NCBI GenBank assembly: GCA_003054695.1
Contig: QAZA01000005.1
Span: 62,001-126,000, forward strand
DNA: 64,000 bases
From: Verrucomicrobia bacterium LW23
Lineage (GTDB): Bacteria > Verrucomicrobiota > Verrucomicrobiia > Methylacidiphilales > UBA1321
Reading direction: 5' to 3'
Below, one piece after another: positions 2,628-38,071 of this stretch. Position 1 is the first letter of the stretch, and every line of letters starts with the position of its first letter. The notes under the pieces are model-generated. The model did no database searches. It saw only the letters and a list, made by a program, of their open reading frames with translations, and was not told where the DNA came from. The position numbers were made by a program, and so were the translations under genes.

Positions 2628-3179
2628 ATGACTTCCCGTACTACTCCCGGCCGCATCCTCTATTCCAGCGAACAGATTGCCGCCCGGGTGCGGGAGCTTG
2701 CGGATGCCATCCACCAAAGCACGGAACATGTTGCCACCAAGGCAGATCCGGTGATTTTACTGGGCCTGATGAACGGTGCGCTGGTGTTTCTCTCCGACTT
2801 GCTGCGCGCCATGCCTGCCACGGCGCACATGGAGGTGCATTGCCAGAACCTGTCGTCCTATAAGGGCACGTCCAGCACCGGTACGATTCGCGGGCTGGAG
2901 TCGCTGCCCGACATTTTTGCGGGGCGACACGTGATTATTGTGGATGATATTCTCGACACAGGGTTTACGCTCCACAACATGCGCGACCGCCTGCTCAACG
3001 TCGGCGCGCGCCAGGTGGATGTGTGCGTGCTGCTGGACAAGAAAGTGCCGCGCACCTATGACATTGCGCCGCAATGGGTTGGGTTTGAGATTCCGAACCT
3101 GTTTGTGATTGGCTACGGGCTGGATCTGGACGGCGCTTTTCGCTCACTTCCGGATATCCGGGTCATTGAGGAGAATTAG
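2628..3179 (+). CDS. hpt: hypoxanthine-guanine phosphoribosyltransferase
   Basis: Purine salvage enzyme that transfers phosphoribose from PRPP to hypoxanthine or guanine. The PRPP-binding loop VIIVDDILDTGFT is clear, as is the upstream PVILLGLMNGALVFLSDL segment. Starting at ATG 2628 gives 183 residues, the usual family size. An in-frame ATG at 2553 would add a Ser/Thr/Ala-rich 25-residue leader, and neither start has a Shine-Dalgarno site. The stop codon TAG (3177-3179) is also the first three bases of the repeat element at 3177-3374, so the element joined the gene exactly at its end. Convergent with gyrA. Confidence 0.92.
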   Translation: MTSRTTPGRILYSSEQIAARVRELADAIHQSTEHVATKADPVILLGLMNGALVFLSDLLRAMPATAHMEVHCQNLSSYKGTSSTGTIRGLESLPDIFAGRHVIIVDDILDTGFTLHNMRDRLLNVGARQVDVCVLLDKKVPRTYDIAPQWVGFEIPNLFVIGYGLDLDGAFRSLPDIRVIEEN

Positions 3180-3374
3180 AGACTGTCGACATCTGGCCTC
3201 CTCCCCCTTTATCCTCTGCTTAGAGGCGATAAAGGGGAACGTAAGGAAGGTTGAACATCGTGGAAGCATCCCCTTGGCGATATTATCTGAAGGTCCGTAG
3301 ATCCAAGGCAGATAGTATCGCCAAGGACGGAAAGTTTCGCCAAGGGGATGCAGCGGAAATGTCTACAGCCTCTA
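3177..3374 (+). repeat. double-hairpin TIR element, copy A
   Basis: This 198-bp non-coding element has terminal inverted repeats TAGAGACTGTCGACATCT (3177-3194) and AAATGTCTACAGCCTCTA (3357-3374). The terminal TA on each side fits a TA target duplication. Inside are hairpin 1 (CCCCTTTATC 3204-3213 pairing with 3228-3237), a conserved spacer (3238-3268), and hairpin 2 (3272-3289 pairing with 3309-3326). It matches the reverse complement of 36232-36543 along its length, but lacks that copy's long hairpin extension and about 17 nt of the second stem. It has no coding capacity and resembles a MITE. Its first bases are the hpt stop codon. Confidence 0.85.
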
Positions 3375-9376: not shown

Positions 9377-9490
9377 GTCCTTGGCGATGCTCCCTGCAAT
9401 CTGTAGTTCCGCAGTTGCGAGGCAGATAATATCGCCAAGGACGGAAAGTTTCGCCAGGGGGCTGCAGAAAGCGGAAGTGTCGACAGCTTC
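9377..9490 (+). repeat. double-hairpin TIR element, degenerate copy B
   Basis: Partial copy in the same orientation as copy A. It retains hairpin 2: CCTTGGCGAT near 9380 pairs with ATCGCCAAGG near 9432. It also keeps the stretch GGACGGAAAGTTTCGCCA and the right-end remnant GTGTCGACAGCTT. The left half and hairpin 1 are missing and the right TIR has drifted. It ends about 7 bp from the stop codon of the guanylyltransferase gene, the same 3'-end placement as copy A. The left boundary is uncertain by tens of bases. Confidence 0.7.
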
Positions 9491-9496
9491 CTCCCC

Positions 9497-23272: not shown

Positions 23273-23410
23273 GGAGGTGCCGGCGCGCGAGGGGATGGAT
23301 CGGGCCAATGGAGACAACACATGGCCCGGGAATGCCCCGCAACATCCCGAAAGCATGGCAACTATTGACATGCAGTCAAGACGCGCTTCCGTCCACGTTT
23401 TCCCTTCCGC

Positions 23411-23515
23411 CCTTCGTGTCTTCGTGCCTTTGTGGTTAAATTCTCTGTCCCCGGTTTCCGGCTCCGCAGCGTCTCAGAAGGAGATATTAACCACCAAGGC
23501 ACGAAGACGCCAAGG
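23411..23515. repeat. 105-bp inverted-repeat element
   Basis: Two 29-nt arms (23411-23439 and 23487-23515) match as inverted repeats at 26 of 29 positions. The arm core is TCTTCGTGCCTT plus GTGGTTAA, flanking a 47-nt spacer. Similar arm sequences are common as dispersed repeats in environmental bacterial genomes, as I remember them. It lies 49 bp past the end of the 23565 gene and upstream of cinA. It does not match the other repeat families in this window. Confidence 0.65.
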
Positions 23516-23564
23516 GAGGAGTTTCGGCTAGATTAAATGATGAGAGAGTACGAATGCACTCCGC

Positions 23565-29512: not shown

Positions 29513-29540
29513 ATCCGAGCATATACATATCTTCTCAGAC

Positions 29541-29621
29541 GCGCCACCGGCGCGAAAGCCTATAGCCCAGGGCGTAAGCCCTGGGCATGAGTTCGAAAGG
29601 AATCGCGTCCTGTAGGGACGC
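29541..29621. terminator. triple-hairpin convergent terminator/repeat
   Basis: Three consecutive hairpins in 81 bp: CGCGCC/GGCGCG near 29540-29554, GCCCAGGGC-gtaa-GCCCTGGGC (29565-29586) and GCGTCC-tgtag-GGACGC (29605-29621). It lies between the convergent TonB-like and TPR genes, 28 bp and 6 bp from their stops. The second and third hairpins resemble palindromes dispersed in many PVC-type genomes, from memory. Confidence 0.6.
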
Positions 29622-31527: not shown

Positions 31528-31695
31528 TTAGACCAAGTCGCACAGTTATTTGCTCTTTTTGCGGGCCGCCTTCGGGCTACGGCCGCACTGAAACTCCGGT
31601 CGAGCATTATTTTAATGCACTCCCTCCGTTTCAGCGCACCCATAGCCCAAAATCAGCTCCGCATAAAGAGCAAATAACTTTGCGAGTTGGTCTTA
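31528..31695. repeat. 168-bp palindromic element with 37-bp terminal inverted repeats
   Basis: The left arm (31528-31564, starting TTAGACCAAGTCGC) and the right arm (31659-31695, ending in the complement of TAAGACCAACTCGC) match in inverted orientation with four mismatches, including ends. Internal nested pairs are CTGAAAC/GTTTCAG and GGGCTA/TAGCCC. No coding capacity. Unrelated in sequence to the 3177 element family. Its right end provides the TAA stop of the HD-GYP gene (31693-31695). Confidence 0.8.
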
Positions 31696-33457: not shown

Positions 33458-36148
33458 ATGGATGCCGACGACTTTCCCCCTCCCCCCGTGCCGCCCCCGC
33501 AGCAGCAGCACCACCCCATGACGGGCGATGAAGACATGGCGGTGCACGAGGAGGTGCGGCTGGATATTGAATCCGACGGCGACCTGCTGAGCGAGTTTAT
33601 CTCCGAGGCGCGCGAGCACCTGGCTGAGGTGGAACAAGGCGTGCTTGCGCTGGAGTCCGCCGCGCCCTCCTCCCAGCGCGGGGAGGAGGCGATGCGCACG
33701 ATTTTTCGCGCCTTCCACAGCTTTAAAGGCGTCGCGGGATATCTGAATCTGGCCCCCATCCACAACCTGGCGCACGAGGTGGAGAGCGTGCTGGACGCCG
33801 TGCGCCACGGAGCAATGGCGGTGGACGCCCCCATCACCCAGCTGGTGCTGGAGAGCAAGGATGTGCTGGAGCGCTTTGTGCGCGACATGGAGATGCGCCT
33901 GCAGAATCCCGCCGAAAGCGCCGTGCCTATCCGCGTGGCGACCTCTCACCTGGAGCTGCGCGCCCGTGCGATTCTCACCACGCCGGCCTCCGCGATGGCA
34001 GAGCCGGAACCGGGCGCGGCCTCGGGCGCAAACCCAGGCAAGACCTTGAGCATGAGCGTAAGCGCGAGCACGAGCGTGAGCACAGGCCTGAGCACGGGGG
34101 GAACCGAAAGCCCTGGCAATTCCGCACAGCCGGCCCCGTCCGCAAGCCCTGCCGCGCCGGATGCATCCCCGTCTGCGCCTGCTTCGGCCGCCTCGCCGAC
34201 ACCGCGCCCGCTCCCCCCCCTTTTTGCGAGCACGCAGGCGGCCCGCCCTCCACAGCCTGGCCCAGGACCACAGGCCCCGGGCATCCCCACGGCGGCCGAT
34301 CCCACGACGATCCGCCCCGCCGCCGCTGCCGCTGCCGAGCCGGACGCCACGCGCCACCCGCTGCCGCCCGGGCCCGCCCAGGGCCCCAGCGCGCCGATAA
34401 CCCCGGCCACCGCGCTGCCCGGCGCGCCGGAAGACGCCCAGGTGCCTGCATCCGCGCCCGAGGCTAAGGATCAGCCCCAGGCCGCGCCTTCGCCCGCCCC
34501 CGTGCCCGCGCCCGAGGCGGAAGAGCCGCCGGTGCCTTTCGCCTATTCCTTCTCCTCCGCACGCCCGGCCGGGGGATCTCCCTCCGCGCCCGGCCCTGTC
34601 CGCGCCACATCGGGCGGGGGAAGCGGCCTGCAGCTTCCCCTCAACCCCGGCGAGTTGCACGGGCAGGCGCCCGCGCCAACCCCTGCTGGTGCTTCTGCGC
34701 CCTCACCCGCGCCGGCAGCAGCCCCGGCCTCCGCCGCGGACGTTGCCTCCGACGCCAACCAGGGCACTACGCGCGTGGACGTGGCCCGGCTGGATATGCT
34801 GGTGGAGTACGTGCGTGAGCTCTCCGTCGTCCACTCGCTGGTCGGCCAAAGCATCCGCGAGCTGGGCGTCAAAAACAATCGCCTGACCCGCCAACTGGCC
34901 CAGATGCAACGTCTCAGCCGCGAGCTGCAGCGCACCAGCATGGCCATGCGCCTGGTGCCCATGAGCGGCCTCTTCCGCCGCATGCAACGCGTCGTGCGCG
35001 ACCTGGCCCGGCGGGAAAACAAGCAGATCAACCTCATCCTTTCCGGCGACGACACCGAGCTGGACCGCACTCTCGTCGAGCAACTCGCCGATCCCCTCAC
35101 CCACATGGTCCGCAACGCCGTGGACCACGGCATTGAAGCGCCCGAACGCCGCATGGCCGCCGGCAAATCGCCCGCCGGCACGCTGCGCATTGAGGCGCGC
35201 CACGCGGGCAGCCAGGTGGTGGTACGCATTGCCGACGATGGCGCGGGACTCGATCGTAACCGCATCCTCATCAAGGGGATAGAACGCGGACTTGTACCCC
35301 CCACCGCCGTGCTGGAGGCCGAGGAGATCGACCAGCTCATCTTCGCCCCCGGCTTCAGCACCGCCGACGTCATCACCGATATCTCCGGCCGCGGCGTGGG
35401 CCTGGACGTGGTGCGCCAGCATATCGATAACCTGCGCGGCCAGATCGATATTGAGACAGAGGCCGGCAAAGGCACCGCCTTCATCATCACCCTGCCGCTG
35501 ACAACCTCCATCCTGGACGGCATGATCGTCACGATCGGCGCCCAGCGCTTCATCATCCCCAGCCCCAGCGTGCTGCGCACCTTCCGCCCCACCCCGCCCA
35601 AAGCCGCCGCCGAGCCGCGCGGGGACACCGCCGGCAGTGACGCGGCCGCCGCACCGGTCGCCCTGCCATCCCTCGCCTCCCCCCAATCCCTGCTGGGCGA
35701 GGGCCCGGACGACACCTCCGCCGCCGGCGTCAGCATCCACACCGACGGTACCGTGTACGAGATGGAAGGCAGCCGCATTGCCGTTATCGACGTGCGCGGC
35801 AAACTCATCCCCCTGGTGCGCGTGGCTGAGGTCCTCGGCATCGAGCCGCTCTTCCGCGACGCCACCCAGGGCCTCGTCGTCCTGGTAGAGGCCGAAGGCC
35901 GCGAAGTCGCCCTGCTCGTCGATCGCGTCATCGGCAAGCAGGAAGTCGTCATCAAACCGCTGGGCGAAACCTTCCGCCGCAACGAGTTCTTCGCCGGCGC
36001 CTCCCTCCTCAGCGACGGCATCCTCAGCCTCGTTCTCAACATCCTCGCCATCGCCCGCCACACCAGCCGCCTGCACGAAATCACCGAACGCCGCGCCCAG
36101 GAACAACGCTGGCAAACCGCCACCGAAGGCGGGGATGTGGTGATTTGA
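33458..36148 (+). CDS. CheA-type hybrid chemotaxis histidine kinase with very long Pro/Ala linker
   Basis: 896 residues. HPt domain with phospho-acceptor H87 in RAFHSFKGVAGYLNLAP. About residues 175-435 are Pro/Ala/Ser-rich low complexity in place of the CheA P2 domain. Then a dimerisation/catalytic kinase core (N box HMVRNAVDHGIE, G1 IADDGAGLD, G2 DISGRGVGLDVV, GKGTAFIITLPL) and a C-terminal CheW-like domain (RIAVIDVRGKLIPLVRVAEVLGI). It has all CheA parts except a recognisable P2. No CheW, CheY, CheR, CheB or receptor gene is in the window. It may signal to the divergent HD-GYP protein or to a distant cluster. Confidence 0.9.
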   Translation: MDADDFPPPPVPPPQQQHHPMTGDEDMAVHEEVRLDIESDGDLLSEFISEAREHLAEVEQGVLALESAAPSSQRGEEAMRTIFRAFHSFKGVAGYLNLAPIHNLAHEVESVLDAVRHGAMAVDAPITQLVLESKDVLERFVRDMEMRLQNPAESAVPIRVATSHLELRARAILTTPASAMAEPEPGAASGANPGKTLSMSVSASTSVSTGLSTGGTESPGNSAQPAPSASPAAPDASPSAPASAASPTPRPLPPLFASTQAARPPQPGPGPQAPGIPTAADPTTIRPAAAAAAEPDATRHPLPPGPAQGPSAPITPATALPGAPEDAQVPASAPEAKDQPQAAPSPAPVPAPEAEEPPVPFAYSFSSARPAGGSPSAPGPVRATSGGGSGLQLPLNPGELHGQAPAPTPAGASAPSPAPAAAPASAADVASDANQGTTRVDVARLDMLVEYVRELSVVHSLVGQSIRELGVKNNRLTRQLAQMQRLSRELQRTSMAMRLVPMSGLFRRMQRVVRDLARRENKQINLILSGDDTELDRTLVEQLADPLTHMVRNAVDHGIEAPERRMAAGKSPAGTLRIEARHAGSQVVVRIADDGAGLDRNRILIKGIERGLVPPTAVLEAEEIDQLIFAPGFSTADVITDISGRGVGLDVVRQHIDNLRGQIDIETEAGKGTAFIITLPLTTSILDGMIVTIGAQRFIIPSPSVLRTFRPTPPKAAAEPRGDTAGSDAAAAPVALPSLASPQSLLGEGPDDTSAAGVSIHTDGTVYEMEGSRIAVIDVRGKLIPLVRVAEVLGIEPLFRDATQGLVVLVEAEGREVALLVDRVIGKQEVVIKPLGETFRRNEFFAGASLLSDGILSLVLNILAIARHTSRLHEITERRAQEQRWQTATEGGDVVI

Positions 36149-36231: not shown

Positions 36232-36543
36232 TAGAGGCTGTCGACATTTCCGCTGCATCCCCTTGGCGAAACTTTCCGTCCTTGGCGATATTATCTGCCT
36301 TGGATCTACGGACCTTCAGATAACATCGCCAAGGGCGGAAAGTTTCGCCAAGAGGGTTGCTTCCATGATGTTCAACCTTCCTTACGTTCCCCCTTTATCC
36401 CCAGCTTAGAGGCTTGTATCCCCCTTAGAGCGAGACATTCTCCTCCGTATTGCAGTACGGCTTCACAGATGTCTCGCTCTAAAGGGGATACAAGCCTCTA
36501 AGCTGGGGATAAAGGGGAGGAGGCCAAATGTCGACAGCCTCTA
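36232..36543 (-). repeat. double-hairpin TIR element, full-length copy C
   Basis: This 312-bp element has perfect 18-bp terminal inverted repeats TAGAGGCTGTCGACATTT, with TA at both ends. Hairpin 2: 36259-36297 pairs with 36317-36355 (36 of 39). Hairpin 1: 36390-36438 pairs with 36469-36517 (48 of 49), with a 30-nt loop that carries CCGTAttgcaGTACGG. Between them is the spacer conserved in copy A (36357-36388). On the plus strand hairpin 2 comes first, so orientation is opposite to copies A and B. No transposase or ORF. It begins 84 bp beyond the cheA-like stop. Confidence 0.9.
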
Positions 36544-36802: not shown

Positions 36803-38071
36803 CTACAACATCAGCTTCAGCTTCCCCACACCCGTCTTCAGCTGATCCGCCAGCTTTTGCAGCCTGGGCAGGGAGGTCTTCTCCGCCAGCACCACCACCG
36901 TACCGCCGGCGCCGCCGGAGGAGATGCGGGCGCCGTAGATGCCTTTTTCCGGGCCAAGCTGCATCGCCGCGTCCACCATTTTGTCGCACTCCGCGGAGCC
37001 CAGGCCGATGTGCGTGTAGCCCACGTGCGATTGCAGCATCAGCTCGCCCACCAGGGTGAGCGTTTTGCGCCCGCTGGGGCTGGCGAAATTGCGCAGCAGG
37101 CTCGCCGCCAGCTGACAACGAAAGTTCTCCGCGATCGGAAAGTGCAAACACGAGCGCACGCGGTAGGTCGTCTCCGGGTCCACCGTCGTGCACGGATCGT
37201 CCGTCTTGCCAAACTTCTCCTCAAACTCTCGGCCCGTCATCCTGTCCGGCACAAATTCGTCGCCGTGCAGCACAAAGGTGGAGGGGGCAATCTCGCTACT
37301 GTGCTCAAACGTTTGACCACCGCGCGTTTCAAAAATCTTCTTGCCCATAAAGGCCGCCGTGCGCGCCTGCACAAAAGGCGCCGACGCTTCATCGGAGCGC
37401 ACACTACCCGCCCAGCCCACCACGGCAATATTTTCCGGCAAGCGAATCGCCTCCAGCAAAATGTCCGGCCGGCACACAATGGGCAGCAAGTGCCCGGGGC
37501 GGCCAAACGCGCTGGCAAGCTGATCCTCCACGCCACACGGGTTACCCACAATCTTGTTCTCCGCCTCGCGCCCCATGCGCGCAATCTCGGTGCCGGAGAA
37601 AATCGTGTCGCTGAAATGCCCCAGCGCGCGCAGCGTGGCTACCTCCAGCGCGGCACTGCTGCTTACGCCAAGTGCCTGCGGCACATCGCTTTCGATAAAA
37701 AACTCCAGCCCGCCGTCCGGCACCCAGTCCTTGGCGCGGGAGAAGACCCACAGGCAGCCCAGCGGGTAAAACGCCCAGCCCGGTGCCTCCACGGCGATGA
37801 GCAGCGCGCGCCAGTTCGCGGCGTCGCACCGCTTGTGCAGGGCGGCCAGCAGCGGCGCAAAATCGCAGGAAAACTCGGCCAGCGGCGTCGTGCTCGTCAC
37901 CACAAGCTGCGAGTCCGGCCGGCTGGTAATGGCCACGCGCGTGGTCGCCGCAATGGGGCTTTGCAGCACCAGCGATCCGCTGTAATCCGCCACGCCACCC
38001 ATAAAATCGAGGCGGCCGGGGGCAACACCCTGGCTGGTGACCGGAGAGAACGCGCGCGCTTTGGTAGGCAT
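36803..38071 (-). CDS. GHMP-family sugar kinase, L-arabinokinase-like
   Basis: 422 residues from ATG 38071, with C-rich leader. The signature VAPGRLDFMGGVADYSGSLVLQ replaces the galactokinase GRVNLIGEHTDY and closely resembles plant L-arabinokinase (ARA1). The ATP loop is LGVSSSAALEVAT, the catalytic-Asp segment is GVEDQLASAFG, and motif 3 is GARISSGGAGGTVVV. It should phosphorylate an aldose at C1; L-arabinose or galactose are the leading candidates. No nucleotidyltransferase is adjacent. Confidence 0.75.
   Translation of the reverse strand: MPTKARAFSPVTSQGVAPGRLDFMGGVADYSGSLVLQSPIAATTRVAITSRPDSQLVVTSTTPLAEFSCDFAPLLAALHKRCDAANWRALLIAVEAPGWAFYPLGCLWVFSRAKDWVPDGGLEFFIESDVPQALGVSSSAALEVATLRALGHFSDTIFSGTEIARMGREAENKIVGNPCGVEDQLASAFGRPGHLLPIVCRPDILLEAIRLPENIAVVGWAGSVRSDEASAPFVQARTAAFMGKKIFETRGGQTFEHSSEIAPSTFVLHGDEFVPDRMTGREFEEKFGKTDDPCTTVDPETTYRVRSCLHFPIAENFRCQLAASLLRNFASPSGRKTLTLVGELMLQSHVGYTHIGLGSAECDKMVDAAMQLGPEKGIYGARISSGGAGGTVVVLAEKTSLPRLQKLADQLKTGVGKLKLML

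Follow-up and report, generated by a model that had tools for sequence, protein, structure and literature searches.

Several groups of short bacterial repeats and small insertion sequences bear comparison with the element described here. The IS5-family MITEs of P. gingivalis (MITEPgRS/MITE464, BrickBuilt and MITE239) are likewise non-coding, and their ends match resident insertion sequences of the IS5 family (PMC4596501). Insertion sequences of the IS427 group of that family, such as those of Paracoccus, have ends of 13-21 bp and generate mostly 2-bp duplications (PMC3281130). The REP and the GTAG- and CGTC-tagged palindromic repeats are, like our element, high-copy, palindromic and mostly extragenic (PMC3733652).

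The window analysed here is a stretch of 64,000 nucleotides from the genome of Verrucomicrobia bacterium LW23, and at 36232-36543 it holds an element that we interpret, with a probability of roughly 0.92, as a bacterial MITE: non-coding, with ends that would serve as transposition signals, and mobilised in trans by a resident IS5-family (IS427-like) transposase, which we infer to be the enzyme that moves it. Less certainly, its long hairpins would have been inherited as palindromic cargo; template switching between their arms during replication would keep them near-perfect and invert their spacers, and slippage on short direct repeats would remove parts of the element and give rise to the shorter classes. 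The characters by which MITEs are recognised were found together, namely a length below 1000 bp without a transposase ORF, terminal inverted repeats, dispersed copies, a target duplication (at two sister copies) and an autonomous element with the same ends.

Anatomy and setting of the window copy

The window copy is 312 bp long and carries no transposase ORF, which places it within the 50-1000 bp, ORF-less range of MITEs; the frames that overlap it in the ORF list are spurious frames of the adjoining genes. An earlier, sequence-only reading had described perfect 18-bp inverted repeats with TA at each end (36232-36249 and 36526-36543, TA counted in), and these were recovered by an end-sequence search of the window, which at up to three mismatches gave 4 matches against 0.02 expected by chance. 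The terminal repeat proper is the 16-bp GAGGCTGTCGACATTT, the TA being assigned to the target duplication (Table 1). That reading was also correct in its account of two hairpins with arms of 49 nt and 39 nt (98% and 92% matched), and of a short palindrome, CCGTA...TACGG, within the 30-nt spacer of the larger. The predicted RNA fold of the element has an energy of -214 kcal/mol, compared with -95 in shuffles (z = -22), an extreme value that is to be expected from inverted repeats of such length.

The element lies between convergent genes, a CheA-like kinase gene upstream (+ strand, ending at 36148) and a GHMP-kinase gene downstream (- strand, 3' end at 36803), the nearest homologues of the latter being 45-49% identical and mostly from Opitutaceae and other Opitutae; by this single gene the host would probably be placed in the Opitutales. 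The window copy probably does little in this position, or acts as an incidental bidirectional terminator.

Table 1. Features of the MITE family in the window
Feature	Position	Strand	Basis
Second family copy, internally deleted, 198 bp, TA-flanked	3177..3374	-	End search and inverted-repeat search
Third, decayed copy: hairpin-1 half with degenerate end TGTCGACAGCTTCC	about 9399..9491	-	Inverted-repeat search
Left target-site duplication, TA	36232..36233	.	2-bp duplication deduced by comparing sister-copy sites with uninterrupted relatives
Left terminal inverted repeat, GAGGCTGTCGACATTT	36234..36249	+	First 15 bp agree exactly with either end of the IS5-family IS at G000:C10:283199-283887
Hairpin 1	36259..36355	+	Arms 36259-36297 / 36317-36355, 39 nt at 92%, 19-nt spacer
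Hairpin 2	36390..36517	+	Arms 36390-36438 / 36469-36517, 49 nt at 98%, 30-nt spacer
Right terminal inverted repeat	36526..36541	-	End-sequence search
Right target-site duplication, TA	36542..36543	.	Read from sequence

Copies, insertion sites and partner insertion sequence

That the element might have no further copies, an outcome which the sequence-only reading had named as telling against it, is excluded by a genome-wide search (56 contigs, 6.6 Mb in all), which returned 110 matches, full-length copies at 94-95% identity among them. A related short class of about 162 bp with a single hairpin gave 88 matches in its own genome; such counts overstate the number of copies, since a palindromic copy is matched on both strands. 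About 40 elements could be delimited with both ends among the loci examined, and the copies in this one genome number in the dozens and fall into several length classes. The end 14-mer has 152 matches in it (at most one mismatch) as compared to none for the reversed control, and the 15-bp end sequence occurs 138 times, whereas 61 other genomes of the order have 0-2 occurrences apiece. The element itself was not found in 59 other genomes of the order, in an exact-pattern search of named genomes and viral contigs, or in a search of phages; among the genomes searched, the family is confined to its own.

One 173-bp derivative is identical at two sites (L100_689 and L101_385), whose flanks have in common only a stretch of 99 bp at 71%, and is 99% identical at two further sites. 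As the identical derivative stands at different sites, it has moved as a unit, and to judge by this identity the movement would be fairly recent. A shared repeat family adjoins three of these copies (the latter two and one of the identical pair), which suggests that its ends are a preferred landing site. Several deletion copies are without the outer arm of hairpin 2, with a junction (read by eye) at the repeated motif CTTACGT(T)CCCCC, and deletions that join in this manner suggest slippage. As a separate observation, about 1.5 kb of flank together with 191 bp of the element recurs at 99.8% identity in mid-contig C9 and at the start of contig C10 (L006 1-1691 and L080 1-1691), which represents either a segmental duplication or an artefact of assembly or strain.

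The bases just outside the MITE ends are TA in 84 of 119 distinct ends, and the base preceding this outer dinucleotide is C or T in 108; the target preference is YTAR-like, YTAR being the target associated with IS5. At the site occupied by copy L019 the uninterrupted relatives L140 and L139 have a single TT, so that the insertion produced a 2-bp TT duplication, and at that of L115 the relative L076 has a single TA, now likewise duplicated. Both sites lie inside other repeats, and the insertions are precise. Target duplication is shown directly for these two sister copies; in the partner insertion sequence, TA at all 12 ends is in keeping with a short (2-4 bp) duplication at a TA-centred target.

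Other repeats were encountered in the course of this analysis. In the window, a separate foldback element with 35-nt arms (31528-31695; AGACCAA...TTGGTCT) has an end motif that, in the form AATTGGTCT, adjoins several MITE copies elsewhere, and it looks like a second repeat family serving as a landing site. MITE copies L004, L006 and L115 are inserted beside a further palindromic repeat (TAGAGCATTTTCCAGATAGCTTGTCGCGAA...; L076 100-225). An Acido-Lenti-1 RNA (Rfam RF01687) lies at 29540-29585; the flanks of MITE copy L116, once joined, align to this RNA at 78%, and a MITE may thus have inserted into or next to a further copy of the RNA. The imperfect inverted repeat at 23406-23520 is of the CTTCGTGTCTTCGTGCCTTTGTGGTTAAAT type, a motif known from many unrelated bacterial genomes.

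An autonomous transposase with the same ends, which the sequence-only reading had proposed looking for, is found in an IS5-family insertion sequence at G000:C10:283199-283887, bounded by TA and GAGGCTGTCGACATT and having the same 15-bp ends as the MITE. Within it, an assembly gap separates the start of the N-terminal part from an ORF for the C-terminal part of a transposase. The 89 aa at the C-terminus match PF01609 (DDE_Tnp_1) at 7.8e-10 and, over the C-terminal third, NF033580 (IS5 family transposase) at 4.5e-25; the latter score, 88.7, falls short of the full-length cut-off of 110, the assembled part being only about a third of the protein. Counted by outer flank, the partner has 8 distinct right ends (a lower bound, at least 8 being assembled) and 4 left ends, and TA borders all 12. 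Several contigs begin or end inside it, as expected of a multi-copy repeat, which breaks assembly; the sole copy with both ends is the one interrupted by the gap, the others run off contig ends, and the transposase gene is read in part. A diverged copy on contig C41 has 88% identity in its 3' portion, and overlapping frames occur in a related (55%) IS5 copy of the same genome, L163. From these sequences we take the partner to be an IS5-family, IS427-like insertion sequence and the probable source of transposase for the MITE.

The interior of the long class is without similarity to the insertion sequence, and since the ends alone match, we reject a plain internal-deletion derivative as the origin of this class; in the short class, one end matches the left end of the insertion sequence at 90% over 29 nt. 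Pairs of terminal repeats 2.6-5.5 kb apart on contigs C55, C39 and C1 were considered as possible larger autonomous units, and those on C55 and C39 enclose ordinary genes and separate copies. The many copies, the uninterrupted related sites and the autonomous partner with the same ends together support the earlier proposal of a non-autonomous, TA-target transposable unit.

Hairpin evolution and competing explanations

Across 16 long copies, 62 of the 124 hairpin pairs vary, of which 32 are broken only, 21 are changed on one side only and 9 are changed on both sides. Shuffles gave 5.1 both-side changes, and 1 of 500 reached the observed number. Most of the observed both-side changes fall within a single 3-nt block or the inverted spacer of copy L097. 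Two independent loci, L006 and L011, have an inverted hairpin-2 spacer; L043 was left out of this count because it has 1.5 kb of flank in common with L006, and L015 because its element lies on the other strand and its spacer is not inverted. The hairpin-2 spacer of L022 is a perfect palindrome, and one copy, L018, has an inverted hairpin-1 spacer. Template switching between the arms of an inverted repeat homogenises the arms and inverts the spacer, and spacer inversion with completion of a palindrome is its published signature (PMC8604942); homologous recombination between the arms would invert a spacer too, without completing a palindrome. In view of the inverted spacers in some copies, the perfect palindrome in one and the mostly uncompensated arm changes, we lean towards reading the hairpins as passengers shaped by replication template switching, and not as a selected RNA.

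A variant of the MITE reading would give the hairpins a role in transposition itself; they might, for instance, form cruciforms or serve as host-factor sites and so raise mobility. Hairpin 1 is indeed kept, in related forms, in long and short classes that differ elsewhere; common descent explains this equally well, however, and the autonomous insertion sequence has multiplied without hairpins at the ends that were read, such that we regard this variant as unlikely. We give rather less credence to the hairpins as selected cargo, in which case they would work as cruciform or dsRNA modules, either assisting transposition or insulating convergent genes, and spacer inversion would be a by-product.

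It is more improbable again that the element is a selected structured RNA, an alternative raised by the sequence-only reading, or is retained for its RNA fold as a bidirectional terminator or a substrate of RNase III. The extreme fold, the excess of both-side changes over shuffles and the position of the window copy between convergent genes are all in keeping with such a role, as are the 11 convergent copies among 25 that could be scored (the others being 11 tandem and 3 divergent, by a rough GC3-based ORF heuristic on which we do not rely). Against it, the variable pairs are for the most part broken or changed on one side only, the 9 of 62 with changes on both sides are concentrated as described above, many copies have lost hairpin 2, spacers differ between copies by inversion or deletion, and none of the families of Rfam matches the element; given the lack of an Rfam match and the mostly uncompensated changes, we reject this explanation.

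The remaining candidate, a MITE of a strict-TA, IS630/Tc1-like transposon, has in its favour the TA outside most ends and the form of a short unit with terminal inverted repeats, but is scarcely credible and is rejected, since the partner that shares these ends codes for a DDE transposase of the IS5 family and TT is duplicated in one clean insertion; the 2-bp duplication at a YTAR-like target fits IS5/IS427, and of the two affiliations first suggested, IS630/Tc1-like or IS5-like, only the latter stands.

Comparison with known systems

A literature search for such a MITE in Opitutaceae or Verrucomicrobia, of incomplete coverage, returned no matching description. REPs depend on a different enzyme, Y1/RAYT. 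They are 20-40 bp in length and are without the long terminal inverted repeats and target duplications of the MITE described here (PMC3733652). With the IS427 group our findings have in common the end length, the 2-bp duplication and the IS5-family transposase of the partner, although insertion sequences of that group are coding and about 830-865 bp long, whereas the MITE is non-coding (PMC3281130).

The closest described case is that of the P. gingivalis MITEs that share their ends with resident IS5-family elements (PMC4596501). The end of ISPg4 in that organism is GAGACTGTTGCA, compared with GAGGCTGTCGACATT in our MITE, and the interior of BrickBuilt is, like that of our element, without a transposase remnant (PMC4596501). 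Tandem direct repeats of 23 or 41 nt are present in BrickBuilt and MITE464 (PMC4596501), whereas the MITE here carries two long inverted-repeat hairpins, and the two groups are unrelated in sequence and host. The present work adds a well-supported MITE family together with its likely helper insertion sequence, and the sister copies constitute a natural data set on the evolution of long DNA hairpins, in which arm homogenisation, spacer inversion and slippage-type deletions are visible. Set beside the known systems, the family is new and ordinary in kind, and what is unusual in it is the anatomy and the visible evolution of its hairpins, not the mechanism.
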